From an uncultured Caulobacterales bacterium (lineage in GTDB: Bacteria; Pseudomonadota; Alphaproteobacteria; Caulobacterales; Maricaulaceae): a stretch of DNA of 64,000 nucleotides. Below the pieces are notes generated by a model. That model searched no databases and had not been told where the DNA came from. It saw nothing but the letters and a program-made list of their open reading frames with translations. Positions 36,293-60,329 of the stretch are shown here, piece after piece. Location of the stretch: the NCBI GenBank assembly GCA_947503715.1, contig CANNER010000004.1, forward strand, positions 124,001-188,000, in the 5' to 3' direction. Within the stretch, counting starts at the first letter, position 1. Each line of letters starts with the position of its first letter. The translations under genes and the position numbers were made by a program.

Positions 36293-36874
36293 CTAGATCG
36301 CGGCTCTTAAATTGGCGAGATTTTCCTGCGCCATGCTCCATCCAGGCTGTAACGTCAGGGCGCGTTCATAGGCTGCAATCGCCCCCGCGCGGTCACCGGA
36401 CATTTCGAGCGTGAGCGCCAAGCCGTAAGCCGCCAATGGCGCAGCGCGCTGATGATCCGCGCAATCCGCAAAGCGAGCTTTCGCCGTCGCCGCATCATTT
36501 TCCAGCAAAGCCGCAAAGCCCAGACCGAGATTGGCAAATTCATTATCGTCGACAAGGCGCGCAGCCTTGTCGAAATCGCGTGTCGCGGACTCAACTTTTC
36601 CGGAGGACAGGCGCAACAGACCCCGACGTGTCAGAAGATCAGAGCGGATATCATAATCCGGCACGGATGCCCGGTACGCTTTTGTACAGGCGCGAATTGC
36701 GCGGGAGGAGACATCACTCATATCCGCATTCAGACAATCCGACAGATTACCGAGTGTTTGAACATCCACAGTGGGAAGTGCGGTTGCGAGCGAATCCTGC
36801 GAGAATGTCTCAGTGGCATGGGCGGCGCCGACGCTGAGGCCGAGTGCGAGAAGTGTTGTTGTGATCCGTTTCAT
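36293..36874 (-). CDS. Small periplasmic TPR protein
   Basis: 193 residues. A Sec signal MKRITTTLLALGLSVGAAHA is followed by TPR-like helical pairs: RSDLLTRRGLLRLSSGKVESATRDFDKAARL (about 75-105), ANLGLGFAALLENDAATAKARFADC and AAYGLALTLEMSGDRAGAIAAYERALTLQPGW (about 150-180). Such proteins are scaffolds; in this clade they often accompany TonB receptors. The start has a GGAG-type ribosome site (AAAAAAGGAGATCACA). A PHO-box-like site lies 111-128 bp upstream, so it may be in the same regulon as the lipoprotein and receptor. Confidence 0.82.
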   Translation of the reverse strand: MKRITTTLLALGLSVGAAHATETFSQDSLATALPTVDVQTLGNLSDCLNADMSDVSSRAIRACTKAYRASVPDYDIRSDLLTRRGLLRLSSGKVESATRDFDKAARLVDDNEFANLGLGFAALLENDAATAKARFADCADHQRAAPLAAYGLALTLEMSGDRAGAIAAYERALTLQPGWSMAQENLANLRAAI

Positions 36875-37251: not shown

Positions 37252-40200
37252 TTAGAATTTTCCGACCAAGTTCAAATACCAACCCAGATCATCTTCGTCT
37301 TCCAGCGCGCCGAGATATTGCTCCTCGATACCGCCCCATGTGACGCCGACGCCCAGCTTGGCATTGTCGTTCATGTGGCGATAGACGCCGGCCTGCCCCC
37401 CTGTGCGGGTGATGACGCCGTTACCGATATCCAACCAGCGGCCTTCCAGATGCAGATCCCATTGGTGGGTCGCGTGGTAGTCGAGGCGGATGACACCGAG
37501 GTCAGCCGAGGACTTCGTAAAGTCGAGGCTCTCACGGTTGGATGTGACCTGTCCGGAACGATGCGCATATTTACCGCCCAGCGTCCATTTCTGCGACACG
37601 TCATAGGCGGCATCCACGGAGACAATTTCCGAAATCTGACGATAGTTCAGAGTCTCGCCGCCAAAGCGCTGACTCGTCGGAGATAGGTCTTCGAGATAGG
37701 TATATTTGGCCAGCAAGTTGAAGCGGTCATCCCAGATCGGGCGGTACGCCGCCGCGATAGAGCCTTCAGTGAACTCGGCCTCATTAAAGTCGACTGGACC
37801 TAGATCACCATCTTCCGTTTGTTTGGACATGGCGCGGTTGAACTTACCCTGCAGACGCAGCTCTTCGCTCGCCTGATATTGCGAGGTCCAACGCAGGAGC
37901 CAAGTTTCGCGCTCGGCGTCTGTGTCGATATTTTTGTCCTGACGCCATTCAGCGGCAAAGCCGGCCTTGAATCGCTCATTCGCGAATCCGGTCGACAGAC
38001 CAAAGGCTTCACGGTCGAGTTGGTCGATCCGACCCACTTCGCCGTTCAAACCGAAGTTCCACTTTCCGGGCGTGTATTCGACGCCATAGGCATGTGTAAT
38101 TCCGTTCAGACCGCGTTGATTGAACTGCAAACGTTCCTCACCAAAGACGGAGAGTGCATCGCCGTAACGCTTGCGCGCCCCGACATTGAACGTGCCGTAA
38201 TTAGATGTCGGCTGCGCCTGTAGCGGAAGGTCATAGGCGAGGTAATATTCGTCGCCATCCTCTTCCTCGCGGCGGAGTGTTGCGCGCGCACCCAGACCGT
38301 CTTCGCCCGTGGAGACTTCGCCGCCACCGAAGAATGTCTTGGATAGGCGGACTTCGCCGCCCACGCCCAGACGGTCCGTTGTGCGTGTATTGTCACCCGT
38401 CAAACCAACTTGGCCAAAGACATAGAGATTAGAGTCATCCGTAAACTGATACTCTCCGCGCAATCCAACAGACGCTCCGGCATTGCCGCGTGCATCATCA
38501 TTAAAGGACAGACCACCGCTAAGTGTTGTCTTCTCGTTCAGGGCGTAATCGACGCGCGCTTCGGCGAAGCTGTTCGTGCCGATGATCTCGGAGTCGGAGA
38601 TATCCGCGCGGGCGCCGAATTCGAGGCCCTTGGCAATCACGATATCCATACCGCCGCCAAACTGCTCGACCGAGCTATTGGTCGCTTCTGCATAGCCCGC
38701 AAAGCCGGCCTGACGTTTGCGCCAATAAGTATAGGCGGAGCCTTCGAGATCAGAGACTTCGGAGAAGTTGACCGCCGCCTCAATCGCATAAGCCATGGCG
38801 TCCACATTATCGTCGCCAAAGACCTCTCCACGGTCGGCGGCATTATAGGTAAAGCCGCCATCAATAGAGGCAAAGGTTTCGACACCCAGACCTTCACTGC
38901 GGGCGATTTCGCCTTTGATGTAAGTCCCAGCCGCATATTGCAGGGTCAGGTCCATCTCATAGAGGTCAGATTCCACGCCGCCATCATCAGAATGATTATA
39001 GGTCGCGCCGAGTTTGACGTGATCGCCGAACCAGCGTTTGGCCCGTGCGCCATAGACAGCGCCCGTGTCATTCGCACCGAAGACGGGCGTAAACTCATAA
39101 TCAGCGACAAGGACTTGCGCATTGCCGGATTGTGATCCGTCGCGGAAGAGACGTCCGTCATCCCCCGTACTGCCCAGCGGACGGGTCAGGATCACACGAC
39201 CTTGGATAAAGTCGAGATCATAATCTGTCCCATATTGTAGGCGACGGGATTCTGTAACCAGACCGGAGACACTATCGCGCGTTTCCACGCGGAGCTGTTC
39301 CGAGCCAATCGAAATATCACCGTGACGTAAGTAGTAGACCGAGCCGCCCGTGCCGCGCAGTTCATCGCGCGCCTGGCGGGTTCCGCCTTCTGCGATGAAG
39401 GCTGTGACGGCTGTGCGGGCATCGCCCAGCGTCGTGAAGCCGTTTTCATCCCAGTGCAGTTTCGCACCATAGAGCGTCCGGTTCACACGGGCGAATTCCG
39501 TATCGTTGAAATCGGTCTGATAATTGCCCCAGAGCGCATAATCATCGTCCCGTTCCACACGGGCATAGATACGACCGGATGTCGGCGCGTCCTGCTCAAT
39601 CGTGGAATTATCACCATAGGTCGGATAATAACGATCGGGGTCCAGACGCCGCAGCAATTGATCAAGGTCTTTATCATCCAATGTGGAGACAAGGTCGCCC
39701 AATCCGGCTTCGCCCGTATCCGCTGTTGCTGTGACCGTCCAACGGTCATTCAGGCGGGAGCGGACGTAGAAGGCCACGCGGCCTTCCTCAAACGTATCGT
39801 CATCTCCAATGCGTTGACCAATCGTCGCCTCGACCTGCGCGACATAGAATGTCTCGCGGGCTTTGACATCGACCATACGGGCAATGGTTTGACCACCGGC
39901 TTCGATCATGACGGATTGCTCTCCGGCGGGCAGAAGCTGTTCCATGACGAAACGTCCCTGCTCATCGACGCGGACCTGCTCACCCATAACAGTCGCAGTT
40001 TCACCCGCAACATTGCGGCCATAGACGCGCACGGCTCCGCCGCGCACGAGGATGTTCGAGACTTGTAATGTATTCTGACCAAAGCTGTTCGGCGCTTCCG
40101 CGACCCACTCGGATTCCGTCAGATCGAACTTAGCCTCACTAACACGCAGACGTTTCGGTGCAGTGTCATCAAAGGCCCCGTCTTTGCCGTAAGCGCGCAG

Positions 40201-43200
40201 GATATAGAGCATGTTTTCAGGCAGGATATCCGGCACAGCCATAGAGGCCTCTGTCCCTGTCACAGGTATCGTGAAGAGCGGCTCTCCCCGTGCGGAACGT
40301 CGCGCATCAAAGACGCGAATTTCCAGACGGTCCGTAAAGGCAGCATAGTTGGAATAGGTCGCAGCCTTCAGCGTGCGGACACCGTTCCAGTTCACGACAT
40401 CCACCTGCGCATTTAGGCGCTTGACGGGATCGAGACTATCGACAGTCGTTTCCAGTTCCATACTGTCAACATAGGCAGACGTGGAGTTACCCCAGCCCAG
40501 CCAACGTTGCAGACGACCCGGAGCCGGGCTTTGATCCGCTTCCGTCACGCGGTCACGACGACCCAGAACAGACGCGCGATTGCGACGCGTGTCAGATGCG
40601 AGCGCACCCTCGTCATCCTGGTCAGTATGATTGTCACGCAGACCTCCACCATTATTCCAGCGACGATCTTCATCACGATCTGTCAAAGCATCACGTCCGA
40701 CAGGTCCGATCAGGCCATTTTCACCAAGAGCGAAGGCCTGACGATCTGTCCCGTTTTCTCGGCCATTATCTTTGATAGCGTCCATCTCACCTTCATCGGA
40801 TGGTACACGCCCACCGAAGACTTCGCCTGCAATATTGCCAGACTCTTCGTAATATTTAGCCTGACCCCAACTCGCCTCAAGCGCGATGTCTTTAAGAGAG
40901 TTTGGCGCAAGATCGCGGACGGCTTCCAAAGCTACCTGAAGGCGGGCCTGGGCGGCATCAACGCTCATGTCGTCTTCTGCATTGAAGACAAGGACAGCGC
41001 GTTCGGCCGCATCATTCTGTGCGAGGAAGCTCTGCAGCTCCTGCACTTTGGCAGCCGCAATACCTGTCCCGTCGAGATTGAAGTCCTCGGCCATAAAGTC
41101 GACGCGGAGCTTCGTGCGGAAACCGGCACCGAAATTCATCTTCACGAATTTACCACGTGTAGCGCGGACAACCCGCGGGTTCTCCGTCGTCGGCGCATAG
41201 CCGAGCGGCAATGTACGCGTGTCAGCTTTCAACAGGAAGTTGGACCCGTTTTCAGCATCCGCCAAGATCGCACATGGAATGTGATAGCGACCATATTCAT
41301 CCGTTGTGATGATGTCTCCGTTCACGGTCACGAGGCGGACACCCGGCAGACCGGGTTCGCCGTCATCCGGATATCCATTGACGTTCACGTCATCATACAC
41401 ACGACCAATGACGGGCGTACAATCGAAGCTTGGTTCAGGGATGTAATCCACAACAGCCGTTGCAATATCTGAGCGTGTCCCTGTTGCCGTATTTTCGGCA
41501 AAGGCCTGGTTCTCATGCGCGCCGAACGTGACATTCGGACCTGCGAGCAATTGCAGATTGACCGAGACAGTTTCACCGGGTTGCAGCGCATCCAGAGGCG
41601 TCACTTCACCCGCATTCAGGGACCAACTTAATACCCCACGGGAGCGGACTGTTGGTTCCAATTCAACAACATCAGACGCATCCGACACACGTGCACTCTC
41701 CGGCACATAGGCGAACCCTTCCGGCAGGCGGTCTACAATATCGACACCCGTCAGAGTCGACGCCGACTCGTTCGTGACCGAGATTGTGTAGAGCACGGGA
41801 TCACCGATCTGGACCGTCCGCGGGCTCGCCGTTTTCGTGACGCGCAGGAAGCTGGCATCGGCGAGCGGCAGGAGTTGGAGCGTAGCTCTGCCCTCACCCG
41901 AAATGTCTCCCGTATCGCGCGGACCTGTAGCGGACACTGTCGCGACATTCGTATATTCACCGTCAACTGCCGGATTAACCGCGGCTTGGAGATTGACGCT
42001 CAGGATTTCACCCGGCGCGAGATCGCCTGTCCCGATCAGAAGATCAGTCACAGTTTGCCCGTCAAAACCCGGATTGACCTGTCCCGCGAAGCCATCAGGT
42101 GCGGCGGTAATGTCGAGCGTTTGAACCTCAACACGGTCAATGCCAAAGACAGCAGCCAGATCATCCTCAATTCGGATATCCTCAACCAACGTTTCACCTG
42201 TATTCGTCACATCGAAATTATAGCTGACCAATTGACGGCCATCATCAAGACGTTCCGGGTCACCCGTGCTGGATTTCGCCAGCTCAATGGCCGGAATACC
42301 ACAGGCGCGGAGCGGGATATTGTTCAGCAGGACAGAGGGATCGCCCGCTTCGAATTCAAATTCGAAGTAGAACGGCGCATTGGCCTCTGCGGAGAAGTCC
42401 GCGATTTGACCCGTGTCACCGACTTCGGACGACCCAAGAATGGCAGGGTTATCCGTGCGTGTGCTGACATCCAGACCGTCTTCGATAGGAAGGCGGGCCG
42501 TGCTGACCAGACCTGTCTCAGGATAGGTCGGCGTGAGCGTGTAGCGACCCGGGGCCGTGACGTAGAACTGATAGAAACCATCAGACCCGTCTTGGACGAT
42601 AACAATATCGTTGAGCGCTCCGACGGCACTGTTCACGCCGTTTGGACCAGCAACAGTGATGCCACCACCTGGCAGGATATTGCCGTTTTCTTCGCAATAG
42701 AAATAACCTGTTGGATCGTAATCCATGCTGTCAGGGATACCGTCACCATCGCGGTCCGCTGTTGGGCTTTCAAAACGATCCGGTGCGCCGTCACCATCCT
42801 CGTCGCCGAGATCAACAGGCGCAGGATTAGTGTCTTCGGGCGTATCAGGTGTGACCGTGTCATCATCCGACGCAACAGGCTGCGGCAAGATTGGCGATAC
42901 ACCAAAGGCTGTGTTGCCCTGTGCGGGAACGCCATTTGTAATATCGATCTGGGCGGTCAGGGTCAGAGAGGCCATCTCACCCACGGCGAGATTATCCATG
43001 CCTGCGAGCAGATCTGTGATTGTCACGCCATCATACTCACCATTGGCGGTGACACCTGTGGCGTCGACTGTCGGTGTTCCAACCAGTGTTGCAGGCGCAA
43101 AACTAGCCGCAAGATCATCTTCCAACTGAACATCGGTCAGGGTTACATTACCCGTATTTTCCAGCTCAAGATTATAAGTCACTTCGAAAATCGGACCGAA

Positions 43201-46200
43201 CATCTGGCGTGTATTTTCCGTCGTCTTGCGGACATCCAGTTCAGGTTCAACCATGGCTTCAACCGTCTCGGAGACTTCCCCGGACTCGGAGCCACCGGAT
43301 GTCGCCGTGGCGAGGTTCGTCACCTGCCCTGCATCCAGATCCGCCTGTGTCACCGCATAATCTGCGGAACATGTCAGCGTGGCTTGCGGCGCGAGACCAC
43401 CCGCTGGCAGAGCCGGACAGGTCACATCCGCGATCTTGTCATCAGAAACGGTGACAGGCGTTGTGAGTGTCAAGTTACCCGTATTCGTCACGTCATATTC
43501 GTAAGACACGATGTCACTGACGGCAGAGAACCCTTCGGTTGTCGCGCGTTTGACGATGAGCAGGCTTTCCTCAGCCTCGGTCTCAACTGTGACTGTATCA
43601 GGTGCAGAGGTTGTTTCACCATCTGACGCAGTCGCGATATTGGTCACGGATCCCGCGTCCAGATCAGCTTGCGTCACGATATAGTCCGCAGAACAGGTCA
43701 ATGTCGCTTGTGGGGCTAGACCACCAGCTGGCAGTGCAGGACAGGTGACGTCTGTAATTTTATCGTCAGAAACCGTAATCGGTGACAGGATGGACGTGTT
43801 ACCCGTATTCGTGACGAGATAATCATAAGTCACAATCTGACCCGGCGCATTAAGAGCTTCGGTCTCTGTAGACTTTTCAATCGTCAGTTCCGGTGTCTGT
43901 GTGCCCGTAATGGTCACAACATCAGGCTCAGACGTTTCACCGCCGGAACTCGCCGTCGCGATATTGGTAACTTGACCCGCATCTAGATCGGCTTGTGTGA
44001 CTTCATAATCTGCCGAACAGGTCAGCGTCGCATTCGGGACTAGGCCCGGATTTGTCGGACAATTAATTTCACCGATCTTGTCATCGGACACTGTGAAGGC
44101 ATCGGTCAGCGTAACGTTACCCGTATTGCGGATGATGAAGTCGTAGGACAGCACGTCGCCGACCATCGAGAAGTCATTGGTCTGCGCGACCTTATCAATA
44201 GTAAAGGCAGACGTAATGTTGCCGGAAACAGTCTCGGTCTCTTCATTCGAAGATGTCGTTCCATCCGTCGCAGTCGCGACATTTGTTACTGTTCCTGCAT
44301 CAATATCGGCCTGATCCAACGTATCCGTTGCCGTACAGGTGATGGACGCATTTGGCAGCAATCCACCCGCTGGCAGCGCCGGGCATGTGATCGCAGCAAT
44401 CCGGTCATCCCTAATGGTGATGGCTTGTGTGATTGTCGTATTACCCGAATTGGTCACGAGATATTCGTAATCCAGCGTGTCGCCCGCTTGCGCGAATTCA
44501 GTTGTCAGCGCGGTTTTCACGAGCGTGAGGGACGGGGCTTGCGCGGCCTCTGCCGTCTCGGACACTTCTTCCGAACTTGTCTCGCCATCTGTCGCTGTCG
44601 CCAGGTTCGTGACAAATCCGGCATCCACATCGGCCTGTGTGATTTCGTAATCAGCCGAACAGGTCAGGGTCTGCGTTGGCGCAAGGCCACCGGCCGGTAG
44701 GGCCGGACAGGTCACAGATGAGATTTTGTCATCGGACACGGTAATCGGCGCAGTGACGGTCACATTACCCGTATTGGTCACGACATAATTATAACTGACA
44801 ATGTCACCCGCCGCAGAGAAGTCGCCGGATGTGGCCGTTTTCTCGAGGGACAGTTCCGGCGTTTGTGTGCCGGTCACGGTCGCGTAGTCTTCATCAGACT
44901 GCGTGGCGCCTGAGCGCGCAGAAGCCGTGTTGGTCACAAAGCCCGCATCCAGATCGGCCTGCGTGACTGTATCTGTGGCCGTACAGAGCAATGTCGCGCC
45001 CGGCTGCAATCCACCAATGGGCAGGGCTGGACAGGTGACGGTATCAATGCGGTCATCCGTAATTGTGACGGGGTCCGTCAATGTGATGTTACCCGTATTC
45101 GTGACGACATAATTATAGTCGAGCGTATCGCCCACGGCTGTGAAGTCGCTATTTTGTGCGAGTTTCTCAATCGTCAGTTCAGGGGCTTGTACACCGCCAA
45201 TCGTTTCGGTCTGCGGCGTTGATGTCGTTGTGCCGTCCGTGGCTGTCGCCGTGTTGGTAACAAAGCCCGCATCAATATCCTCTTGGGAGACTGTATCCGT
45301 ACCGCGACAGATCAATGTGCCACCGGGAGCGAGGCCGCCCGCGGGCAATGCATCACAGGTCACATCCGGAATGCGGTCATCCGAGATGGAAACCGGGAAC
45401 ATGATCGTTACGTTACCAAGGTTGGTGACGGTATAAGTATAGTCCAGCGTGTCGCCGACATTTGTAAATTCTGTCGTGACGGCGTCTTTGACCAAACCGA
45501 TTTCAGGCTGCTGATCGGCCGGAATTGTGACAAAATCTGTCGGGCTGTTCGTCCGTGGATGTGTCGCGAACGCGTCATTGGTGACGGAGCCGCGGTCCAT
45601 ATCGGCCTGCGTGACTTCGTAATCCGCTGTACAGGTTTCAATCTGCCCCGGAATGAAGTTGCCTGTATAACAGACAAAGGTGCCGATCCGGTTATCCGTG
45701 ACGGAGATATTGCCCGTGAGAGTCACGTTACCTGAGTTCTCAATCTCGAAAGAATAAGTCAGGATATCGCCCGCCGCCGAGAATGGCAGTTCATCCGAGG
45801 ACTTACGGATTTCTAGCGCAGGATTGGCATTGGCCGGAATCGTCTCACTATCCGGCGCAGAGGTCGTTGTGCCGTCCGTCGCCGTCGCGATATTGACGAC
45901 CACGCCAATGTCGAGATTGTCCTGTGTGACGACATAATCGGCGGTACAAGTCAGGCTCGCATCCGGCGCCAGACCGTCCGTTGGAAGAGCCGGACAAACA
46001 ACATTCGGGATGCGATTGTCACTAACCGTAATCGGATCTGTAATCGTTGTGTTACCCGAGTTGGTGACGACATATTCATAGGTCACGATATCGCCCGGCA
46101 GGGTGAAGTCGATATTCGTTGCCGTTTTCTCAATCACGAGTTCAGCCGTGCGGGTCGCAAAGACACGACGCGTTGTTTCGTCCGACTCTGTATCACCGCT

Positions 46201-49200
46201 GGCGGCTGACGCCGTGTTCTCAACCACGCCTACATCAATATCGGCCTGTTCGACTTCGTCCGTACCCGTACAGGTAATGGATGCGCCCGGAACCAATCCA
46301 CCCGCCGGCAGCGCCGGACAAGTGACATCGGGAATGCGGTTATCTGAGACGGTGACCGGATCAGTCAGTGTCACGTTACCCGTATTGGTGACGTCAAAGG
46401 TGTAAGTGATGATCTGCCCAGGTGTGTTAAACGTGGAGAGATCGGAAGATTTGCGGATGGAAAGGGCTGGCATGTCGTCAGCTTCCACCGTCGCGCTATC
46501 CGTTGGCGATGTCGTTCCACCATTAGACGCGGAGGCGATATTCGTCACCTCACCCGCATCCAAATCGGCCTGTGTCACAAGATAAGTCGCCGTACAGACG
46601 ATCTCCTCGCTCGGCTGCAAACCTGCCATGGGCAGGGCCGGACAGATGACGTTTTCAATCTTGTCATCCGCAACGGAGATATTCCCCGTCAATGTGACAT
46701 TACCCGTATTGCGGACGCGATATTCATAGGACAGCACATCACCTGGTGCGGAGAAACTGGTCTCCAGCGCGGATTTCACAACTGATAGCGCAGGCGTCTG
46801 CGTTGCCGGGACTGTGACGTCATCTGTTGAGGAAACTGTTGTTCCCGTGCGGGCGGACGCCACATTAGTGACTTCGCCAGCGTCGATGTCAGCTTGCGTG
46901 ACTTCATACTGCGCGGAACAGGTCAGCGACGCATTCGGGGCCAAGCGACCGCCCGGCAGCGCCGGACAGGAAACGGACGCGATCTTGTCATCAGACACCG
47001 TGATCGGCTCGGTAATGGTAACATTACCCGTATTCGTGACGAGATAATCATAATCGACAATTTCACCGACAGTCGTGAAGGATGTACTACGCGCAGACTT
47101 TTCAATCGCGAGTGCAGGCTGGAGATCGGCGGATACGGTTTCGTCAACCGGATCCGTCGTTGTCGTGCCATCGGTACCTGTCGCCCGGTTCGTCACGGAT
47201 CCATTATCAATGTCCTCTTGGGACACGGTGTCTGTACCCGTACAAGTCAGGCTCGCGCCCGGAACCAATCCACCAGCTGGCAGAGCCGGACAGGCGACAG
47301 AGGCGATGCGATCATCGGAAACGGAGAGGGCGTCTGTGACGGTCACATTACCCGTATTCGTGATGACGTAGCTGTAAGTCACCATATCGCCGACCGCCGC
47401 ATAAGTCTGCGGAGAGGCCGTCTTCGTCATGGCGAGGGACGGGGTTTGTACGCCGCCCACCGTCTCGGACACTTCCGGCGATGTGTTGATACCGTCTGTT
47501 GCCGTGGCGAGGTTCGTCACCTGCCCCGCATCCAAATCGGCCTGCGTCACAACATAAGTCGCGGAACAAGTCAGACTTTCCGTTGGCGCCAATCCACCTG
47601 CCGGAATGACCGGGCATGAGACAGACGCGATCTTGTCATCCGTAATTGAAATCGGATCAGTCAAGGTCGTGTTACCGGAATTTGTGACAAGATAATCGTA
47701 ATTAATTGTATCGCCAACCCGTGTGAAATCAGAGGTTTGCGCCGTCTTCACAACGGTCAAACCTGGCACGAGATCTGCATCGACAGTTTCAGTTGTCCCA
47801 ACAGGAGACAATGTGCCGCCAGCGGGTGTGCCGGAGACGGAAACGGTGTTTGTCAGAGAACCGTTATCAATATCGGCCTGCGTGACTGTATAGGACCCGG
47901 TACAGGTGAAACTTGCGGTCGGTGCCAGAGCTGCGGACGAGCAGGAGAGGCTTGGGATCAGGGGATCGTCCACGACGATGCCGGAGACCGAAACATTGCC
48001 CGTATTTGTGACGATGACTTCAAAGTCGACAATATCGCCCACAGCGTCAAAGCTGTTTGTGAGTGCGTTTTTGACGACGGAGAGACTAGGCGTTTGATCG
48101 CCTGAAATTGTGACCGTATCGGGAACTTCCGGCAGCGGATCGCCATTTGGCAGATCGGATTTGGCCGACGCATTATTGATGACTTCACCCGCGTCCACAT
48201 CCGCTTGCGTCACCTCATATGTCGCGGAACAGACCATGCTTTGCGCCGGTGCGAGTGTCGTCAGAGGACAGGTGACAGACGCAATCAGATCATCTTCAAT
48301 GACGATATTAGAGAGCGTAACAGAGCCCGTATTTTCAACATCGAATTCATAGCTGAGAATGTCGCCCACCATATCAAACGCGGTGGAAACCGCACGTTTG
48401 TCAAATGTCAGACTTGGCTGCGCATCACTTCCAACTGTGGTCGTGCCCGGCGTTTCCGTCGGTGTGCCGCCACCCGGCGGTGTCCCCGCGACAGAGGCAT
48501 TGTTAACGACTTCGCCCGCATCCACATCGGCCTGTGTCACGGTATAGCTGGCCGTACAAACCATGGTCTGCGCAGGGGCAAGTTCCGTCAGAGGACAAAC
48601 TACATTGGCAATAATGTCATCAGAGACGGAAACAGATGTCAGGGTGACATTGCCCGTATTTTCAACGTCAAATTCGTAATTAATGACATCGCCCGCATTG
48701 ACGAATTCCGCGGTTGTGGCGCGTTTCACGAAACCGAGGGACGGCGTACGGGTCCCCGTTACCGTCACATCCACAGGTGCCGAAACCAGCGTTCCGTTTT
48801 GTGCAAAGGCTTGGTTCATCACCTCACCCGCATCAATATCCGCTTGGGTGATCGTATAGCTGGCCGTGCAGGTTTGCGTTGCGCCGGGTGTGAGATTTCC
48901 GGTGACACAAGAAATTGTGCCGATCTTATCATCAATCACATCTACGCCACCCGTCAGGGTTACGTTGCCCTCATTCGTGACGTCGAATTGGTACTCAACA
49001 ACATCGCCCGCCATTGTGAAATCACTGAAGAGCGGTGTTTTCACGATGGACAGAGCCGGAGATTGATCCGCCGGAATTGTCTCGGACGTTTGCGTCGAGG
49101 TCGTTGTACCGTCCGTGGCAGAGGCCAAGTTCGTCACCTGTCCTGCATCCAAATCGGCCTGTGTCGCTTCATAGGTTGCGGTACAGGTCAGGCTGGCATT

Positions 49201-52200
49201 CGGGGCCAAACCACCTGTCGGCAGAGCCGGACAGTTTACGGTCGCGATCAGGTTGTCTGTCACTGTGATGGGGTCGGTAATCGTGACATTACCCGTATTC
49301 GTGACGACATATTCATAGGTCGTGATGTCACCGGGCAGTTCGAAATTCACATCTGTGGCCGTTTTGACAGTTTCAAGTGACGGCGTTTGCACAGCATCCA
49401 CGGTTTCGTCATCACCGGCAGGCGCTAGCGTGCCGCCCGCAGGCGTGCCGGAAGCTTCCGCATTATTCGTAACAGACCCGGCGTCCAGGTCTTCCTGCGT
49501 GACTTCATAATTCGCCGTACAGATAACCGTTTCCGTCGGGTCGAGATTGTCATCATTATTGCCAATCGCCGCAACGTCGCAGACCACGGTTGCGATCTTA
49601 TCATCGGTGACCGTTATGTCGGATACGAGGACATTGCCCGTATTCGTGACGGTGTAAGTATAAGTCAGAATATCGCCAACAGCATTGAACGATGTTTCGC
49701 CCGCAGCCTTGACCAATGTCAGAGCTGGCATTTGGACGGCGTCGACTGTCTCAGACGTTTCCGGTGGTGTCAGTGTTCCGCCATTCGGTGTCCCGCCAGC
49801 AGAGGCGAGGTTCGTGACAGAGCCCGTATCCAAATCAGCCTGCGTGACTTCATAAGTACCCGTACAGACAACAGATTCTGTCGGGTCGAGAATAGCATCG
49901 CCATTGCCGATAGCCGCAACATTACAGGTGACGGAAGCGATTTTGTCATCAGTTACGACAATATCGGCGATCCCGACATTGCCCGTATTCGTGACGGTAT
50001 AGTCGTAATTAATTAAATCTCCAATCGCGTCGAACTCGGTCTCACGCGCGATTTTTGCGATTGTTAGGACAGGTGATTGCGTGCCCGAAACCGTTGCATC
50101 ATCCGTTGGCGATGTCGTTGTTCCGTCAGACGCGGAAGCAACGTTCGTGACAAATCCCGCATCAAGGTCTTCCTGCGTCACGGAATAACTGGCCGTACAG
50201 GTCAGGCTTTGCGTCGGCATTAATCCACCAGCAGGCAAAGCCGGGCAGGTCACGACAGCCGGAACCGTGATCTTATCATCCTCGACTTCAATCGCAGACG
50301 TGAGTGTCACGTTACCCGTGTTTGTCACGAGATACTCATATTCCAACGTATCACCAATGGCGGCAAAGTCGGATGTGAGGGCAGTTTTCTCCAGGGTCAA
50401 AGCCGGGGACTGCGTCCCGTCCACAGTCGCCGTGTCACCCGCAGGAGTCAGAGTTCCCCCCGCTGGCGTGGCCGTTGCAGAGGCGATGTTCGTAACAGAT
50501 CCGGCATCCAGATCTTCCTGTGTCACAGGATATGTGGCCGTACAGGTCGTGAACTCTGTTGGGGCCAATGTTGTCACAGGACAGACCACCGTCGCGATTT
50601 TATCGTCAGAGACGATCAAGTTGGTAATTTCGACATTCCCGGTATTGGTGACGAGATATTCGTAAGACAGCTCATCGCCGACCATGGCGAAGTCCGTGTC
50701 AATCGCGGTCTTGGCGAGTGTCAGAGCCGGAGATTGCGTGCCGCCGACTGTTTCGGTATCCGTTGGCGGCACGAGCGTTCCCCCTGTCGGCGTACCATCA
50801 ACAGACGCGATATTCGTGACGGACCCCGTGTCCAAATCTTCCTGCGTGACTTCATATGTCGCAGTACAAGTCGTGGATGCCCTGGGCGCGAGTTCCGTGA
50901 CCGGGCAATTAATTGTCGCAATTTTATCATCTGAAACGCTGATACCGGAAATCGTGACATTACCACTATTCGCAACATCATATTCATAGGTCAGTTCATC
51001 ACCAACCATTACGAAATCAGTGGACGTCGCGCGTTTGTCGAGTGTCAGAACGGGCGCTGGTGTTTCCGGTCCCACGGATTCTGTATCCGTTGTCGGTGGC
51101 AATGTTCCACCGCTTGGTGTGCCCGTGAAGGTCGCCGTGTTTGTGATCGGCGTGCCAGAGTCGATGTCCGCTTGTGTGACTTCATAGCTGGCCGTGAAGC
51201 TGACCGTCTGCCCAACGGCCAGTGTCGCAATATTGGCAGGTGTGATCGCGGAGAGCGTGCCTGTGCCGTCATGGACATCTGACACACTTACATCGGTCAG
51301 GGTGACGTTACCCGTATTGGTCGCGGTGTACGTATAGGTGATGATATCGCCAACCGCGACATCCGTTGTGACGTCAGCCGTCTTTGCAAAATCGACCAGC
51401 GGCGCGGGTGCATCGGGTGAGACGGATTCCGAGTCTGTGGCGGGCGTAAGTGTGCCTGCGACAGGCGTGGCATTGGCTGTCGCTGTATTGGTAACGGGTG
51501 TGCCCCCATCAATATCGGCCTGTGTGATGACATAGGTCGCGGTGAAATCTGCAAACTGCCCGACGTCTAATGTAGGCACATTGGCAGGCGTAATCGCACC
51601 GAATGGCCCTGTCCCTTCATGGACATCGGAAACCATGACGTTGTTGACGGTGACATTGCCGGAGTTCGTGACGCGGTAAGTATAGGTAATTGTATCACCG
51701 GCGGCGGCATCAGCTGTCACGTCTGCCGTCTTGACGAGCGTCAGTTCAGGCGCAGGACCGTCGAGCACAACATTCTCATCATCCGTCGCAGGGACATAAG
51801 TCCCGCTGGGCGGTGTCGCAGCAACCGTCGCCGTGTTTGTGATCGGCGCAGCGGCGTCGATATCCTCTTGGGTCACAACATAAGTCGCTGTGAAATCTAC
51901 GAAATCGCCAATGGCCAGCGTCGCAACCGTCGCAGGCGTAATCGCGGAAAGCGGCCCTGACCCTGAGTGTACATCCGAGACCGAGATATCGGCCATCGTC
52001 ACATTACCCGTATTCGTGACGCGGTAAGTGTAGGTGATCGTCTCGCCCACAGACAGATCCGCTGTCGCATCCGCCGTTTTCGCCACGGTCAATTCCGGTC
52101 CGGAGGTTTCCGGTGTGACAGACTCGGTCGCATCAACGGGGTTCAACACACCTGTCGCAGGCGTCGCCGTCAGGGTCGCCGTGTTCGTGATAGCGACGCC

Positions 52201-55200
52201 CGCATCAATATCGCCTTGGGTCACTTCATACGTCGCCGTGAAGGTCGCCGTAGCACCGGGTGCAAGACTGGCCACAGAGGCCGGCGTAATGGCCGAGAGT
52301 GTACCGTCACCCTGATGAACGTCTGACACACTGACATTTGTCAGGGTCGTATTACCCGTATTCTGGGCCGTGTAAGTATAGGTGATCGTCTCACCCGCGA
52401 TGAGGTCGGATGTTTTGGATGCGACCTTATTGAAGATGACGTCAGGTGAACCCGGATCAGGTGTCACAGTCTCATCATCTGTGGCGGGTGTGTAACTACC
52501 GCGTGCAGGGGTTGCTGCAACTGTGGCCGTGTTTGTAATCGGTGTCGCGGAGTCGATATCTTCCTGCAGGACTTCGTAAGTCGCCGTGAAGACTTGCACC
52601 TCACCCGGCTCCAGATCGACAGAAGTAGGCGCAATCGCGGAGAGCGTACCCTGCCCTGAATGCACATCAGAGACCGAGACATTCGTCATCGACACATTGC
52701 CCGTATTCTCGACGCGGTAGCTATAGGTGATGGTATCACCTGCCAGAACATTAGCCGTTTTGGATGCGGTTTTCTGAACATCCAAGAGTGGGTTTGGACC
52801 TTCAACCGTGACGGTTTCATCCGCTGTCATCGGCGCGAGTGTGCCACCCTTTGGTGTGGCCGCAAGGGTCGCCGTATTTGTCAGGTCCGTTCCCGCATCA
52901 ATATCTTCCTGCGTGACAACATAGGTCGCCGTGAAAGTCTGGCTTTCCGTTGGGGCAAGATCAACAGAGGCGGGTGTAATCGCGGAGAGCGTTCCCGTAC
53001 CGGATTGGACATCAGACACGGAAACATTGTCTAGGCCGACATTGCCCGTATTCGTGACGACGTAAGTGTAGGTAATCGTGTCGCCTTCGCTGACATCAGT
53101 TGTGTCAGACGCAGTTTTTGTGAAGGTCGCATTCGGGGCCGCCGCTTCCGGCGAAACCGTTTCATCGGCGGTCACAGGAGTCAGCGCACCATTGGCGGGC
53201 GTGCCGTCTGCTGTCGCGGTATTTGTGATATCCGCGCCGGAATCGATATCTTCCTGCGTAATCGTGTAGGTCGCCGTGAAGATTTGGCTTTCCGTTGGCG
53301 CGAGGTCGACAGAAGCGGGTGTAATCGCGGAGAGCGTACCCGAGCCTGAGTGCACATCGGAGACCGAGACACCTGTGATCGTAATATTGCCGGAGTTCGT
53401 GACCTCATAGGAATATGTAATGACTTGCCCGACCTCGACATCCGCCGTCGCGTCCGCGGTCTTTGTCATGGAGAGTTCCGGCGCGGGCGCATTAACGGCA
53501 ACCGTCTCATCCGCTGTCACAGGTGTATAAGCGCCCAGTGCAGGTGTCGCCGCGGCCGTCGCTGTGTTTGTAATATCTGCTCCCGAATCAATATCGGCTT
53601 GGGTGATTGTATAAGTCGCCGTGAAAATTTGGCTTTCCGTTGGCGCAAGATCGACAGAGGCTGGCGTAATCGCAGACAATATGCCCGTCCCGGAATGCAC
53701 GTCGGAAATCGAGACACCGTTCATCGTGACATTACCGGAGTTTGTTGCCGTGTAGGAATAGGTGACGATATCACCTTCCGCGAGACCGGATGTTTGCGAC
53801 GCGGATTTTGTAAATGTCAGCGCAGGGTTAGGAGCTTCAACAGAGACCGTCTCGTCATCCGTTTCCGGTGTGAAAGTCCCTGTAGCAGGCACGGCATTCA
53901 CCGTCGCCGTGTTGGAAATATCCGCACCGGAGTCGATGTCTTCTTGTGTGATGACATAAGTTGCCGTGAAGGTCTGGCTTTGCATTGGCGCAAGGTCGAC
54001 ACTGGCTGGCGTAATGGCGGTGAGTGTGCCCGTACCACCATGCACATCGGAAACACCAACATCCGTCAAGGTGACATTGCCGGAATTAATAACGAGATAG
54101 CTATAGGTGATGGTTTCACCAGCAACCAATTCCGAGGATTTAGAAACTGTCTTTGCAAAATCAACATCCGGCGTCAGGGCTTCGAGGGTGACCGTCTCAT
54201 CATCCGTTGCGGGGGTGTAAGTTCCACGCGCAGGTGTAGCGGCAACCGTCGCCGTGTTTGTAATCGACGTGCCCGCATCAATATCCGCTTGCAAGACCTC
54301 ATATGTTGCGGTGAAGGTCTGCGACTGTCCGGGATCCAGATCGACACTGGCGGGTGTAATCGCGGATAGAGCGCCGACACCTGAATGCGCATCAGAGACC
54401 GAGACGGCCGTCATAGACACATTGCCCGTATTTTGGACGACATATGTATAGGTGATGATATCGCCAACCGAGGCATTCGTCGTCTGCGAAGCGGTCTTCA
54501 CGACCGTCAGTAATGGATTGGCAGCTTCGACAGTCACTGTCTCATTATCGGTGACAGGTGTGTAACTACCGGCGGCTGGCGTCGCATTGACAGTCGCCGT
54601 GTTCGTGATGTCCGTTCCCGCGTCGATATCTTCCAGTTGAACCACATAAGTCGCGGTGAAATCTTGGCTGTCTCCCGGCTGCAATGTGACGCTGGCAGGC
54701 GTAATGGCGGAGAGTGCTCCGGCGCCGCTCTGCACATCAGAGATGGACACATTCTCCATCGTCACATTGCCGGTATTTACGACGGCATATGTATAAGTGA
54801 TCGTGTCACCAACCTGAACATCCGTCGTGTCAGACGCCGTTTTTACAACGGTGAGTAAAGGATTTGGCGCTTCGACGGTGACGCTTTCGTCGGCTGTGAC
54901 AGCGGCCAGTGTTCCACGTTTTGGTGTGGCCGCGAGGGTCGCTGTATTTGTAATCGGCGTGGCCGCATTCACATCGTCCTGCGTCACGACATAGGTCGCG
55001 ATGAAAGTCTGGCTTTCAGTCGGGGCCAGATCAACGGAAGCTGGCGTGATCGCAGAGAGCGTTCCCGTCCCGCTATGGCTGTCGGACAGGCTGACATTAT
55101 CAAGCCCGACATTGCCCGTATTCGTGACGACATATGTATAGGTGATCGTTTGACCTTCGACGACATCCGTATCGTCAGAGGCTGTCTTAGTCAGGGTCGC

Positions 55201-58200
55201 AGCCGGAGTTGCGGCTTCGACGGCAACGGATTCGTCTGCTGTCGTTGGTGTGTAAGTTCCCCGAGCAGGCGTTGCGTTAGCCGTGGCCGTATTCGTAATC
55301 GCTGTGCCCGCATCCACGTCGGCTTGTGTGACTTGATACGTCGCGGTGAAAGTCTGGCTTTCCGTGGGCGCAAGATCAACCGAGGCGGGGGTAATAGCGG
55401 AGAGTGTGCCTGTACCACTATGGACATCGCTGATGGAAACAGCTGTCAAATCGACATTGCCATCATTCGTGACAACATATGTATAAGTGATCGTCTGACC
55501 TTCTACGAGGTCAACATCGTCCGAAGCTGTCTTCGTCAGGGTCGTAGACGGCGTGGCGGCTTCAACGGCAACCGACGCATCATCCGTTGTCGGGACCAGC
55601 GTGCCTTGTGACGGCGTCGCGCTCAACGTGGCCGTATTTGTGATAGCCGCGCCCGTATCAATATCTTCCTGCGTGACGAGATAGGTCGCCGTGAAGTCAA
55701 CAAAATCACCAACGGCCAATGTTGTTACATTTGCGGGCGTGACGGCGGAGAGCGTACCCTCCCCACTATGCACGTCTGAAACTGAGAGGTTACTTAACGT
55801 AACTGTGCCGTTATTCGTGACGCGATACGTATAGGTGACCGTGTCACCTGCCGAGAGGTCCGTCGAAACATCAGGTGTCTTGACGAGTGTTGCGGATGCG
55901 TTGGGTGTGGCCAATGCCAGAGACTCGCCATCCGTCGGCGGAGTGAAACTGCCATTGGCAGGCGTGGCGTTACCCGTTGCAGTGTTTGTAATCGGGCCAC
56001 CCGCATCAATGTCTTCCTGCAGAACGACATAAGTGGCGGTAAAACTGACATCATCACCCGGCAAAAGGGTCGCGACTGTCGCGGGCGCAATGGCGGAGAG
56101 CGTCCCTTCCCCGTTATGAACGTCAGAGACCGAGATATTTGTCAGGGTCACATTGCCCGTATTCTCAAACACATATGTATATGTGATCGTGTCGCCTTCT
56201 ACGACATCCGTGGTTTTATCCGCCGTCTTAGAAAGTGTCGCAGCTGGGGCGGGCCCTGCGGTTGTGACGGATTCATCCGCAGTCGCAGGCGTAAATACGC
56301 CACGGGTCGGCGTTGCATTCGCTGTCGCTGTATTCGTAATCGCGACACCCGCATCAATATCGGTTTGCTGCACAACATAAGTTGCCGTGAAGTCCTGATT
56401 GCCGCCGACGGGAATATCCGCAGTTGCAGGGGTGATCGCGGAGAGTGTGCCCGTGCCCGTGTGGACATCCGTGATTGTCACATCTTCCAACGTCACATCG
56501 CCCGTGTTCACGACATTATAGGTGTAGGTAAGGGTCTGGCCTTCGACGACATCTGTATCATCATCGGCGAGTTTGGTCATGGTGGCGGACGGTGCGGGCG
56601 CAGCGAGGCTGACGCTTTCATCGGCTGTGCGTGCGCCTAATGTGCCGCGTGCCGGTGTAGTATTGAGGGTCGCTGTGTTCGTGATATTCGCCCCAGAATC
56701 GAAATCGTCCTGCGTGATGACATAGGTCGCGGTGAAGTCCTGCGACGTACCGGGCGCGATATCGACGCCAGTTGGCGTAATCGCGGAAAGTGTGCCCGAC
56801 CCCGAATGAACATCGGAGACGGAGGTATTGGTCAGCGTAACATTACCCGTATTCTGAACGGTGTAAGTATAGGTGACGGTATCGCCCTCTTCTAAATCCG
56901 AATCAGGTGAAGCAATTTTGGAGAAGACGGCTTCCGGTGTTGGGGCCGTGACGGAAATACTCTCATCCGCTGTGGGCGCGACTATCGTTCCCCGGCGGGG
57001 TGTGGAATTGGCCGTCGCAGTATTGGTAATATCCGCGCCGCTATCTATGTCGGCCTGCGTGACGACATAGGTCGAGGTGAATGTCTGGCTCCCGCCATTT
57101 GGCGCCAATGAAACTGAGGCAGGCGTGACAGCAGAGAGTGTGCCCTCACCTGAATGGACATCCGTGATGTTCACATCGTTGAGTGTGATATTGCCATTAT
57201 TTGTTGCGACATATGTATAGGTGACCGTCTCACCCGCCGTCAGGTTCGTCGTCTTGTCGGCGACTTTTGTCAGCGTCATGACATTATTGGCGGCGGGGCC
57301 GGGAATGGACAAAGTACCGGACACGTTGCCCAATTGACCCTCAGTTGGGTTCGCCGTCACTTCCGCCGTGTTCACAAAAACGACATCGTTATCAATGTTC
57401 TCCTGCGTGACAATATGCTGCCCCGTACAGGTCATTGAGTCGCCCGAATTGAGCGATGTAAACGGACAAGAGACTGCGCCTGTAATGAAACTATCATCGA
57501 CGACAATGCTGTTGAGTCTGACGGATCCGATATTCGTCACCTCGAAACTATAATTGATAATATCGCCCACGGCGTCGTAATCCGTCCGGTCAGCCATTTT
57601 TTCAATCGTAACACCCGGCGCGACTTCCGGTGTGCCTGTTGCGTCTACACCGTCTTGGAAGAACCAGGCATTATCACCCCGTGTTGTACTACTCCCAGTA
57701 TCGTCATCCCGAATGAATGGTGTGGTGCTTCCGACAGACAGAATATTTGTAAGGAGCGGCCCAGGAAGATCGAACCACCCTGTACTTGTTTCAGTTGTGC
57801 CTTGATTACGGAAGCAGTTTTCCTGACTGGCAATTTGGGTCGTCCCGGTCAGGTTTGTACGTTGCACATCCGTTGGCCCAAGGTTGGACAGGCTGGAGAC
57901 TTCAATCCCGTTGACCAGAAAGGCCACGTCTTCAAAATCAAAGTTACCCGGACAGGCATCCGCATCGCGAACGGTAAGACGAGCGTAACCTTCGGCAATG
58001 GACCCACCGAAATAGTCAGAACACGAGACGATCCCGCAATTCAGTGTCTGTTGCGGGCCCAGTTGAAATGTCGGAATACCGCGGAAGGCGGTGGGAGTGC
58101 CTGTCCCTGCAAAACCTTGGAATTGCGTCGAAGGGTTGACGAACTGGTAGTAGATATTTCCGTTCACCCCTATCAAAACAAACATCGTGCCACCAACAGC

Positions 58201-58380
58201 AGGATATGTATCCGGGATTGGACCGTTCCCATTTGGAACAGTTTCCGTGAAGGTTGTTGCCCAGGCCGTTTGGGATGCGGCCGTCCCCGCGAGAAGGAGG
58301 GCGGCGACCGCCGAGGCTTTCGCTGTGCGGCTTAAAAGGCGTTTTGTACGCGTGAACAGTGTATATAATAAGTTCGGCAT
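37252..58380 (-). CDS. Giant DUF11-repeat surface protein with C-terminal outer-membrane-barrel-like region (about 7042 aa)
   Basis: A single uninterrupted frame of 7043 codons. The ATG at 58380 is chosen because it begins an ordinary signal peptide ([13 protein letters not shown], cleavage near 41); a TTG 14 codons upstream is less likely. Order: N-terminal beta domain (about 42-255); one cysteine-bearing DUF11-like unit (256-366); 18 cysteine-free units (366-2443); 24 units with one Cys pair each (2443-5048); a divergent pair of domains with DxDxDG Ca-binding segments (near 5190); further DUF11 units; an SdrD-B-like domain ([21 protein letters not shown], near 5650); a Gly/Asp-rich linker; and about 860 strand-rich residues ending in NLVGKF. 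The last part looks like an outer-membrane barrel. Each repeat is an Ig-like domain, so a long surface stalk anchored by its own C-terminus is inferred. Function (adhesion, cell contact) is unproven. Confidence 0.85.
43235..51052 (-). repeat. Repeat block B: 24 units of about 326 bp, each with a cysteine pair
   Basis: Units start with (L)(T/S)(L/I)xKxAxxxxF and include GD, [12 protein letters not shown](L/I), [19 protein letters not shown], [17 protein letters not shown] and VTNxAxA. The two Cys (after DDKI.. and in LTC) are kept in all 24 units. They run from [12 protein letters not shown] (near 51,050) to the unit ending [10 protein letters not shown] (near 43,235). Length per unit is 106-115 codons. 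Confidence 0.9.
51052..57282 (-). repeat. Repeat block A: 18 units of about 346 bp, cysteine-free
   Basis: Units contain [17 protein letters not shown], [18 protein letters not shown], TATYxVTQxDIDAG, ITNTATxxATPxxG and a T/D-E-S/T-V linker. No cysteine appears in any unit. Several neighbouring units share long identical stretches ([16 protein letters not shown] in at least five), a sign of recent duplication or gene conversion. Confidence 0.9.
57282..57615 (-). repeat. First DUF11-like unit, divergent and cysteine-bearing
   Basis: This N-terminal unit ([21 protein letters not shown]...) has the Cys pair of block B (VSCPF.., MTCTG) although it precedes the Cys-free block A. It looks like a capping unit from before the expansion. 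Confidence 0.75.
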
Positions 58381-58739: not shown

Positions 58740-59174
58740 ATGACCCGATCTTCGAAATCATATCCCGCACCCAACAAAGCGCCGGATATATTCTACGCAC
58801 CGGACCTTTGCCCGATACGCGGCGTTTTAGGTCATATTGGACAGAAATGGCCATCCCTCATTCTGTGCCACCTCTCCTTCGGAACTCACCGTTTCTCAGA
58901 GCTTCGCGGCGCGATTCCGGACATCTCTCAACGGATGCTGGCAAAGACTTTGAAGACGCTTGAACGCGACGGTCTGGTCAGTCGGGATGCGTGTCCCGGT
59001 ATGCCGCCAAGAGTCGATTATAGCCTCACCCCTTTGGGTGACAGCTATATCGAGCCCTTGCAGAATCTGATGAATTGGGGTGCTCGGAACAAGGCCAGAA
59101 TAGAAACGATCCGCCAAGCCTATGATGCTGAGACATCACCCGGTACCATTTTGCAGAAGACGAAGATCGGTTGA
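58740..59174 (+). CDS. HxlR-family transcriptional regulator
   Basis: 144 residues with one MarR-like winged helix domain. The family signature is clear: LCPIRGVLGHIGQKWPSLIL (Cys24 conserved), HRFSELRGAIPDISQRMLAKTL, LERDGLVSRDACPGMPPRVDYSLTPLG. Many HxlR proteins sense reactive electrophiles or oxidants through this N-terminal Cys. It is divergent from the giant gene and shares its promoter region, so it may regulate that gene or itself. The next 441 bp are non-coding. Confidence 0.9.
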   Translation: MTRSSKSYPAPNKAPDIFYAPDLCPIRGVLGHIGQKWPSLILCHLSFGTHRFSELRGAIPDISQRMLAKTLKTLERDGLVSRDACPGMPPRVDYSLTPLGDSYIEPLQNLMNWGARNKARIETIRQAYDAETSPGTILQKTKIG

Positions 59175-59615: not shown

Positions 59616-60329
59616 CTAGTCTGCTAGGATCAACTCAGAGATATCATTCAAACGCTCACGCCTGTTTTCCCAATCACTCTGGTGTTTTGAGAGTAGGTTG
59701 TAGAACCGTTCGCTATGATTACGTTCAACAAGATGACATAATTCATGTAGCAATACGTAATCGATACATTGAATTGGTGCCTTAATAAGCTTGGGATTTA
59801 GTATTATTACACCTGATGGAGAACAACTTCCCCACTGTGTTGTCATTGCCTTAAGTGTGATTTTAGGTTCGGATAGCACCCATGTAAGACTGTCTATTAA
59901 AAGCAATAAGCGCTTTCTAAAATAGCTTTTAGCGCGCTCACGATACCACCGATTAAGGGCGTCAGGGACGGCAATTGTATCATCAATATTCACTATTATC
60001 TGCCCGCCCATGAGCTTCACACCACAACTTTCAGCGGTCACGACTTTTAAGATATATCGTCTGCCCAAATAGAAATGCGTCTCCCCTGAAACGTATTGCC
60101 TCGGCAATATGTGCGAGCGTTGCTCTTCTTGAATCTCTAGATTTTTGGTGACCCATCGAAGGCGTTTTTTAAGGGCGTCTCGCACCTCTGACTCGCATAC
60201 TCCGATAGGGGCTTGAACTTCGATACGGTTTCTTGGGTGAACCTTAATCCTTATTTTCCCTTCGAGGTTAGCTACCGAATTGAGTTCAAAATTTAGAAGC
60301 CTATCGCCATATTGAATTTGTCTTGTCAT
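59616..60329 (-). CDS. YgjP/DUF45-family metallopeptidase of the type I restriction locus
   Basis: 237 residues. The zinc motif HELCH is at 195-199 (LLHELCHLVERNHSERFY), with a further His205 and the TTQWGSCSPSG segment (163-173) typical of YgjP/DUF45 (SprT-like) proteins. N-terminal half holds beta strands (IRIKVHPRNRIEVQAP). Its start overlaps the hsdR stop by 4 bp. DUF45 genes are commonly found attached to hsdR; their role is thought to be accessory, but is not established. Confidence 0.88.
   Translation of the reverse strand: MTRQIQYGDRLLNFELNSVANLEGKIRIKVHPRNRIEVQAPIGVCESEVRDALKKRLRWVTKNLEIQEEQRSHILPRQYVSGETHFYLGRRYILKVVTAESCGVKLMGGQIIVNIDDTIAVPDALNRWYRERAKSYFRKRLLLLIDSLTWVLSEPKITLKAMTTQWGSCSPSGVIILNPKLIKAPIQCIDYVLLHELCHLVERNHSERFYNLLSKHQSDWENRRERLNDISELILAD

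Follow-up and report, generated by a model that had tools for sequence, protein, structure and literature searches.

The window analysed here is a 64,000-nucleotide stretch of DNA from an uncultured Caulobacterales bacterium (G000:C4:124001-188000; genomes are labelled G and loci L, G000 being the 3.15 Mb source genome). It contains a giant gene whose product, judged by comparison with related sequences, joins in one chain what is elsewhere a two-gene system. On balance this product is probably a self-contained surface fibre that carries both halves of a Pseudomonadota system, an immunoglobulin (Ig)-like repeat fibre and a very large outer-membrane barrel of its own. The parts are of known kinds; their combination, the order of the cysteine block and the two-gene system are without description in the open literature searched, and for the two-gene system that search covered open PMC literature, with subscription papers outside it. 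One apparent hit, "DUF11" in a paper on the type 11 secretion system (T11SS), was rejected because the string was DUF1194 matched as a prefix, besides one passing mention of PF01345.

A putative fibre and a predicted barrel in one reading frame

A minus-strand frame at 37252-58422 stays open for 7056 codons, the first of them TTG; from the ATG at 58380, followed by a signal peptide, it encodes a protein of 7042 residues (~730 kDa). An earlier note on this DNA had described one uninterrupted 21 kb frame at 37252-58380, a signal peptide, 43 tandem Ig-like units in two blocks and a strand-rich C-terminus ending in Phe. We recovered all of these, the coordinates exactly and the units by profile. 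The parts of the gene, and the regulator gene divergent from it, are as follows.

37252-58380, minus strand: whole gene, 7042 residues
58258-58380, minus strand: signal peptide, about residues 1-41 (cleavage site placed by eye; hydropathy peak 2.14)
57610-58257, minus strand: N-terminal tip domain, residues 42-257, four Cys
57280-57609, minus strand: unit 1, DUF7507 with a Cys pair, residues 258-367
51049-57279, minus strand: block 1, units 2-19, without Cys, residues 368-2444, of varying length among species
43261-51048, minus strand: block 2, units 20-43, a Cys pair each, residues 2445-5040, with largely collinear orthologues in most relatives
41458-43260, minus strand: residues 5041-5641, degenerate unit 44, an Asp-rich stretch and DUF11 domains
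40801-41457, minus strand: conserved C-terminal module, residues 5642-5860, an SdrD_B-like domain (two conserved Cys) and a further part
40471-40800, minus strand: hydrophilic linker at the junction, residues 5861-5970 (predicted local distance difference test, pLDDT, below 50 at the linker end)
39850-40470, minus strand: strand-rich region ahead of the barrel, residues 5971-6177
37255-39849, minus strand: residues 6178-7042, predicted to form a large outer-membrane beta-barrel and ending in Phe
58740-59174, plus strand: divergent HxlR-type regulator gene, beside the giant gene in four of eight relatives

The SdrD-B-like domain of the earlier note finds its support in relatives: Pfam gives SdrD_B 28.8 bits in the window protein, short of the cut-off of 29.7, whereas three of nine partner proteins tested (L118, L115 and L107) exceed it. 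The second part of the module stands where some relatives have OmpA domains. An OmpA-type peptidoglycan domain was rejected for the window protein itself, in which Pfam found no OmpA match; the region only replaces the OmpA domains of some relatives. The calcium-binding segments of the earlier note may correspond to Asp-rich stretches at about residues 5195-5228, which have what we take to be a resemblance to thrombospondin type 3 repeats; no Pfam model matched them.

Fibre and predicted barrel are neighbouring genes in many relatives

The evidence for two joined halves comes from 37 barrel loci related to the tail, namely four plasmid loci (those examined among 24 plasmid records with tail relatives) and 33 further places that were fetched. 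At 32 of them, an open reading frame (ORF) on the same strand lies directly upstream of the barrel and carries, near its C-terminus, a module matching window residues 5500-5941 (at L111 and L133 only a contig-edge fragment of this ORF is seen). Two more loci (L114 and L134) hold both parts in one ORF, bringing fibre-barrel linkage to 34 of 37 in a set that includes two pairs of near-copies (L120/L121 and L105/L106). From the stop of the fibre ORF to the nearest in-frame barrel start the distance is -7 to +31 nt, a measure from which the true spacing may differ; in RefSeq annotation, taken via PLSDB, the two genes overlap by 1-4 bases at three of the plasmid loci, and 72 bases separate them at the remaining one. 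Outside the set stand four barrel places that are contig-limited or frame-split (G070, G028, G117 and G249); at G070 and G028 the C-terminal module again lies just upstream of the barrel.

Directly upstream on the same strand, each plasmid locus encodes an SdrD_B or DUF11 protein or, in Pelagibacterium, one annotated "hypothetical protein" that has eight unit-like domains. Tail relatives on plasmids are themselves mostly named TonB-dependent receptor or hypothetical protein, and otherwise OmpA family or outer membrane protein transport protein (single cases), something else, or nothing. Through the pairing, proteins annotated variously as DUF11 proteins, TonB-dependent receptors, OmpA family members or hypothetical proteins would belong to a single surface system of two parts, spread across Pseudomonadota.

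Presence and absence follow the same pattern among the 99 genomes searched in the family comparison. Strong matches to the module (E <1e-30) occur in 18, all of which also have a strong barrel match. The barrel is strongly matched in 20, the two without a strong module ending at contig edges there, and none of the 79 genomes without a strong barrel match has a strong module match (Fisher p 8e-18, an index only, as the species are related). Eight more genomes have weak module matches (4e-7 to 6e-4); the line at 1e-30 was set after inspection, within a gap that spans 1e-38 to 4e-7. Proteins of ~1700 residues whose match to the barrel is confined to its first 300 residues are left out of these counts, and with them 40 of the 99 genomes match. 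One such protein is a 1750-codon DUF11 frame of the source genome (L062:3640-8889, on G000:C2), and partial matches of this kind recur across family and phylum.

The linked parts also have features of their own. In the module, two cysteines are conserved in 33 of 42 sequences, and OmpA domains end three of nine scanned partner C-termini (L125, L126 and L128). By a crude hydropathy criterion, whose threshold of 1.7 was chosen afterwards, 32 of the 35 non-fused barrels have a signal-peptide-like N-terminus (the exceptions are L119, L123 and L129, and L124 is doubtful); no such stretch occurs at the junction or linker of the window protein (hydropathy 0.94). Given the pairing of module and barrel, residue 5942 lies near the joint of two proteins that are separate elsewhere. 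The earlier note had remarked that no secretion partner lies nearby, and none is adjacent, because the partner is fused onto the window protein.

Module and barrel share one frame in 12 of the 99 genomes, belonging to seven genera. Eight of these fused giants have both ends on the contig and measure 5045-7056 codons from stop to stop, and the other four are contig-truncated and without N-termini (G058, G033, G060 and G095). G091 and G005 contain a fused and a split copy side by side in their genomes. On a quick tree of 54 barrels, which is without a known root and in which L134 forms a very long branch, 19 fused forms fall on one side of a branch with support 97, so a single origin of the fused forms is possible.

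An ordered stalk with exchangeable tips

DUF7507 (PF24346) was matched in four of four scanned pieces of the protein, and a search with a profile built from the units, of the kind that had been proposed, found 43 units at residues 258-5040 and a degenerate 44th at 5051-5144. Their period is ~115 residues in units 2-19 and 105-115, mostly 108, in units 20-43. A Cys pair sits in 25 units (unit 1 and units 20-43), always in the same two alignment columns; units 2-19 have zero Cys. Aligned, all 43 units have Lys in column 4, Asp in column 42 and Asn in column 93 (43/43 each), and the degenerate unit 44 falls short of this triad. A survey that renames DUF7507 as CLIPPER_2 counts it among predicted isopeptide domains, giving the matching triad Lys72-Asp112-Asn152 for an example, and reports crystallographic evidence of such a bond in a DUF11 domain (PMC12617251; this and the other papers cited here are represented by part of their text). 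Its source models were limited to 1280 residues, and therefore proteins as large as the window protein could not appear there.

Among the nine giants compared, the triad (Asp or Glu accepted) is found in every unit of G005, G091, G098 and G058, with shortfalls in G012 (1/38 units), G019 (4/27), G027 (3/24) and G032 (13/29). The unit count of G012 is uncertain because its frame crosses an N run of ~128 codons. In G032 (L060-L061), units 3-15 are 13 consecutive units with Thr or Asn in place of the isopeptide Lys, Asp and Asn being retained; read from these residues, the stretch is a natural unlocked block.

The description of the gene as highly repetitive DNA applies to the protein and fails for the nucleotides. 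Mean identity among units is 44% at the protein level and 52% at the DNA level, with a maximum of 77% for any one DNA pair; one 30-mer and no 40-mer is repeated within the gene. Near-identical tandem repeats of unit length were sought by k-mers and Tandem Repeats Finder and none were found, the latter reporting only one 24-base unit and no array of unit period. Because the units have diverged in DNA, collapse or expansion of the array by assembly is unlikely.

We compared the gene with eight relatives, comprising six Caulobacterales metagenome-assembled genomes (MAGs), one Algimonas (placed by NCBI taxonomy in Robiginitomaculaceae, Maricaulales) and one Hellea MAG. Selection on the frame, claimed by the earlier note, is borne out: dN/dS, the ratio of nonsynonymous to synonymous change, is 0.06-0.21 where computable (rough values, synonymous sites being near saturation). 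Since the same architecture occurs in other genera under purifying selection, chance is excluded. The size and two-block plan are less exceptional than had been supposed, as giant size recurs in other genera and the plan in G098, G091, G012, G005 and G058.

The two blocks differ in conservation. Of the 24 units of block 2, collinear reciprocal best hits number 15 in G098, 19 in G091, 18 in G012, 14 in G005, 14 in G058, 15 in G019, 7 in G027 and 3 in G032. For the 18 outer units, the collinear matches are 5, 6, 5, 3 and 1 in the first five of these genomes, none in G019 and G027 and 1 in G032, a comparison that is fair only for G098, G091, G012 and G005, whose Cys-free units number 12, 12, 13 and 8; such units are absent from G019 and G027, G032 contains a single one, and the G058 frame is truncated by its contig. 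Across relatives the Cys-free block ranges from 0 to 18 units. Exactly 24 Cys units stand beside the barrel in G000, G091, G012 and G058, with 18 in G098 and 33 in G005. From collinearity and these counts, the inner stalk reads as old and equal in length in four genomes, and the outer part as one that grows and shrinks.

The tip (residues 42-257) has no Pfam match of its own. It is common to G098, G005, G012 and G032, is present in 6 of the 99 family genomes, and also occurs on separate fibre proteins of L120 to L122 (E 6e-39 or better), with 42-43% identity to the N-terminus at L120 and L122. Elsewhere it is replaced, by DUF6923 and Big_9 in G091, by SpaA_2 in G027 and by P_proprotein in G019. 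Identification of the tip by fold was attempted and rejected, as the model was poor and the matches listed were Ig-type chains with low template-modelling scores (TM-scores); the solved DUF11 domain was absent from the best 50 fold matches listed.

A very large predicted barrel

An AlphaFold2 model of residues 5942-7042, made with 29 aligned sequences, has a mean pLDDT of 70.7 and a predicted TM-score (pTM) of 0.54. It contains 34 strands of at least seven residues from model residue 479 onward and eight more at 259-427. The tail is predicted to form a large outer-membrane barrel, with 34-42 strands by this count, and might rank among the largest barrels made of a single chain. Foldseek returned 43 PDB matches at E up to 0.001. 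Going by their titles, all but three appear to be barrels from the outer membrane or from mitochondria, among them SprA, LptD, TonB receptors, SlpA, a porin, VDAC and Tom40, with one pilus entry taken to be the usher; the three exceptions are apolipoprotein B. TM-scores lie between 0.08 and 0.21 when normalised by query and between 0.03 and 0.38 when normalised by target length.

Six separate barrels gave Pfam matches to several outer-membrane barrel families, all below cut-off, and in the L115 barrel OmpA-type NCBIfam matches at about 104-227, ahead of the barrel, were likewise below cut-off; NCBIfam had no match for the other five, and no Pfam or NCBIfam model rose above threshold in any family member scanned. 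A relative of the barrel in PDB was sought and rejected: a single-sequence search gave none, and in a profile search the sole match was to a designed transmembrane barrel (E 0.46). The earlier idea of a self-anchored protein with a barrel-like tail thus gains from the strand pattern, the Foldseek matches, the C-terminal Phe and the below-cut-off matches of relatives, and needs amending in that the tail appears to be more than an anchor; structure prediction, which had been suggested, delivered the strands and stopped short of proving a closed barrel (pTM 0.54).

How the fibre might leave the cell

OmpA domains are normally located in the periplasm; therefore, a stalk that precedes them can be outside only if it passes the membrane. 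Four features together suggest an external fibre whose C-terminal end would be held in its own barrel, namely the close pairing of the two genes, the C-terminal module, the OmpA domains found in some partners and the swapping of tips. We propose that the chain would enter the periplasm via its signal peptide and the C-terminal barrel would be inserted into the outer membrane, after which the stalk and tip might leave through, or together with, this barrel. Acting as plug and hook, the module at 5642-5860 could remain inside or beneath the barrel, its OmpA-like end lying in the periplasm. Outside the cell the units would fold and lock by up to 43 Lys-Asn isopeptide bonds and 25 disulfides, and the resulting stiff fibre, ~170 nm long by estimate (43 x 4 nm), would present a swappable tip for attachment.

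Several observations weigh against this self-contained surface fibre. The barrel model, with a pTM of 0.54, query TM-scores of 0.08-0.21 and a pLDDT of 70.7, leaves room for an unclosed barrel and for another number of strands, and the Pfam OmpA model gave no match in the L115 barrel. Three of the 37 loci (L109, L110 and L123) are without a module-bearing partner, and six of nine partner C-termini, like the window protein, have no OmpA match. G032 departs from the pattern twice, with a poorly collinear inner block (3/24) and the loss of Lys in 13 of 29 units. The structure model of the tip has low pLDDT and is not confidently folded, and the barrel tree is compatible with either the fused or the two-gene form having come first. 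Finally, disulfides or isopeptide bonds formed prematurely could jam a narrow pore.

The last point bears on mechanism, as export of Hbp, a model autotransporter, comes to a halt at an engineered hairpin held by a disulfide (PMC8419823); therefore, either the units lock only outside, or a wide barrel passes folded units. It is conceivable, though we lean against it, that the second option represents a new form of outer-membrane export in which a SprA-sized barrel dedicated to each fibre, docked by the C-terminal SdrD_B/OmpA-like module, passes folded and locked Ig domains, translocon and cargo being here one polypeptide. The exit of isopeptide-locked fibres is in any case not readily explained by known autotransporter behaviour, and the fused and split forms offer a natural experiment on how such fibres leave Gram-negative cells.

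Known systems each share part of this plan. The fibrillar adhesins of the CLIPPER and CLIPPER_2 type (DUF11/DUF7507) have the same repeat family and triad in the stalk of a surface protein; in them disulfides co-occur in 34.9% of CLIPPER_2 domains, and the last domain of an Acinetobacter example is OmpA-like (PMC12617251). The window protein, with tandem DUF7507 domains behind a signal peptide and the Lys-Asp-Asn triad, reads as a candidate CLIPPER_2-stalk adhesin, and differs in its 43 units, ordered Cys block and fused barrel; the survey covers AlphaFold database (AFDB) models of up to 1280 residues and, in the text available, does not mention a barrel partner, the outer membrane, autotransporters, secretion or export. 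The closest known logic is that of CdrA/CdrB, in which a long adhesin of ~70 nm points its N-terminal tip outward while a cysteine hook keeps its C-terminus inside the pore of the partner barrel (PMC7616799). Here the C-terminal module is SdrD_B/OmpA-like, the partners are in one chain and the predicted barrel is much larger; no ShlB/POTRA-type (Omp85) barrel was matched in the window tail or six relatives, and Pfam found no two-partner secretion (TPS) domain at the N-terminus of the window protein. ZirT/ZirS resembles the present system in that a separate outer-membrane protein exports its partner, combining features of two-partner systems and of the intimin/invasin family, whereas ZirT is expected to be a compact barrel and ZirS is released rather than kept as a fibre (PMC2270342).

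SprA, the 36-stranded translocon of the type 9 secretion system (T9SS; PMC12611786), whose cargo bears a C-terminal signal domain (PMC8545088), is a giant barrel and supplies the best non-apolipoprotein Foldseek matches of the tail. It differs in belonging to another phylum and in showing no detected sequence relation (SprA_N has no Pfam match in the window protein), and the present system has one barrel gene per fibre gene. Genome-wide searches for SprA_N and ShlB were uninformative, their positive controls giving no match. Inverse autotransporters (type Ve) have the barrel N-terminal to the Ig passenger, whereas that of the window protein is C-terminal.

Among other explanations, the one that fares best, though we consider it unlikely, is that the barrel is only an anchor or plug without a transport role and that the beta-barrel assembly machinery (BAM) moves the fibre out in autotransporter style. 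Signal peptide, N-terminal passenger and predicted C-terminal barrel in one chain indeed make up the classical (type Va) layout, and a C-terminal Phe is typical of BAM clients. However, 32 of the 35 non-fused loci encode the barrel in a gene of its own, next to the fibre gene that it is paired with, the predicted 34-42 strands compare with 12 in the PF03797 autotransporter barrel, and PF03797 has no match in the window protein or six separate barrels. Hbp, moreover, copes badly with inserts that are folded or locked by disulfides (PMC8419823), and the present stalk contains 25 Cys pairs.

That the stalk serves as a long tether or spacer inside the periplasm seems to us improbable. N-terminal domains of barrel proteins are usually periplasmic, and OmpA-like parts adjoin the barrel in some relatives, but the tip is exchanged for domains that occur in known surface proteins, namely SpaA_2, P_proprotein and Big_9, the outer block is variable, an extended chain of 170 nm would have to lie along the periplasm, and the unit family is described from surface fibres (PMC12617251).

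Very little speaks for a TonB-dependent receptor with a repeat extension beyond the RefSeq names of tail relatives on plasmids and the genes shortly downstream of the fibre-barrel pair on a Phyllobacterium plasmid (L098:11231-13532), which encode exbB, exbD and a TonB-family protein; such genes are not listed at the other three plasmid loci, in a PLSDB gene table that is incomplete. At E up to 0.01 for the window tail and up to 0.1 for eight separate barrels, no match was found to the Plug and TonB_dep_Rec domains that mark such receptors, although the same scan readily detects the receptor encoded at 30548-33133. An origin of the array or of the fusion in faulty assembly is scarcely credible: repeat arrays are often misassembled, but no 40-mer occurs twice in the gene and the fused frame is common to twelve genomes of seven genera.

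Neighbouring genes

The HxlR-type regulator gene at 58740-59174 (plus strand) is kept beside the giant gene in G098, G091, G012 and G032 among the eight relatives checked, of which G058 is without the gene's start, making it a candidate regulator of the giant gene. None of the window's downstream neighbours that we tested recurs beside the giant gene in the eight relatives, including the tetratricopeptide repeat (TPR) protein gene with a signal-peptide-like start that lies directly downstream (36293-36874, minus strand). At 33237-36035 (minus strand), directly upstream of the TonB-dependent receptor gene at 30548-33133, is a gene for a 932-residue protein with a lipoprotein-like N-terminus and, by eye, two similar halves; it has no Pfam or NCBIfam match. 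On the other side of the giant gene, at 59616-63586 (minus strand), a YgjP-like protease gene overlaps a type I restriction HsdR-like gene; GC content is 0.44-0.48 there, against 0.49-0.58 elsewhere in the window, and this segment is perhaps a mobile island.

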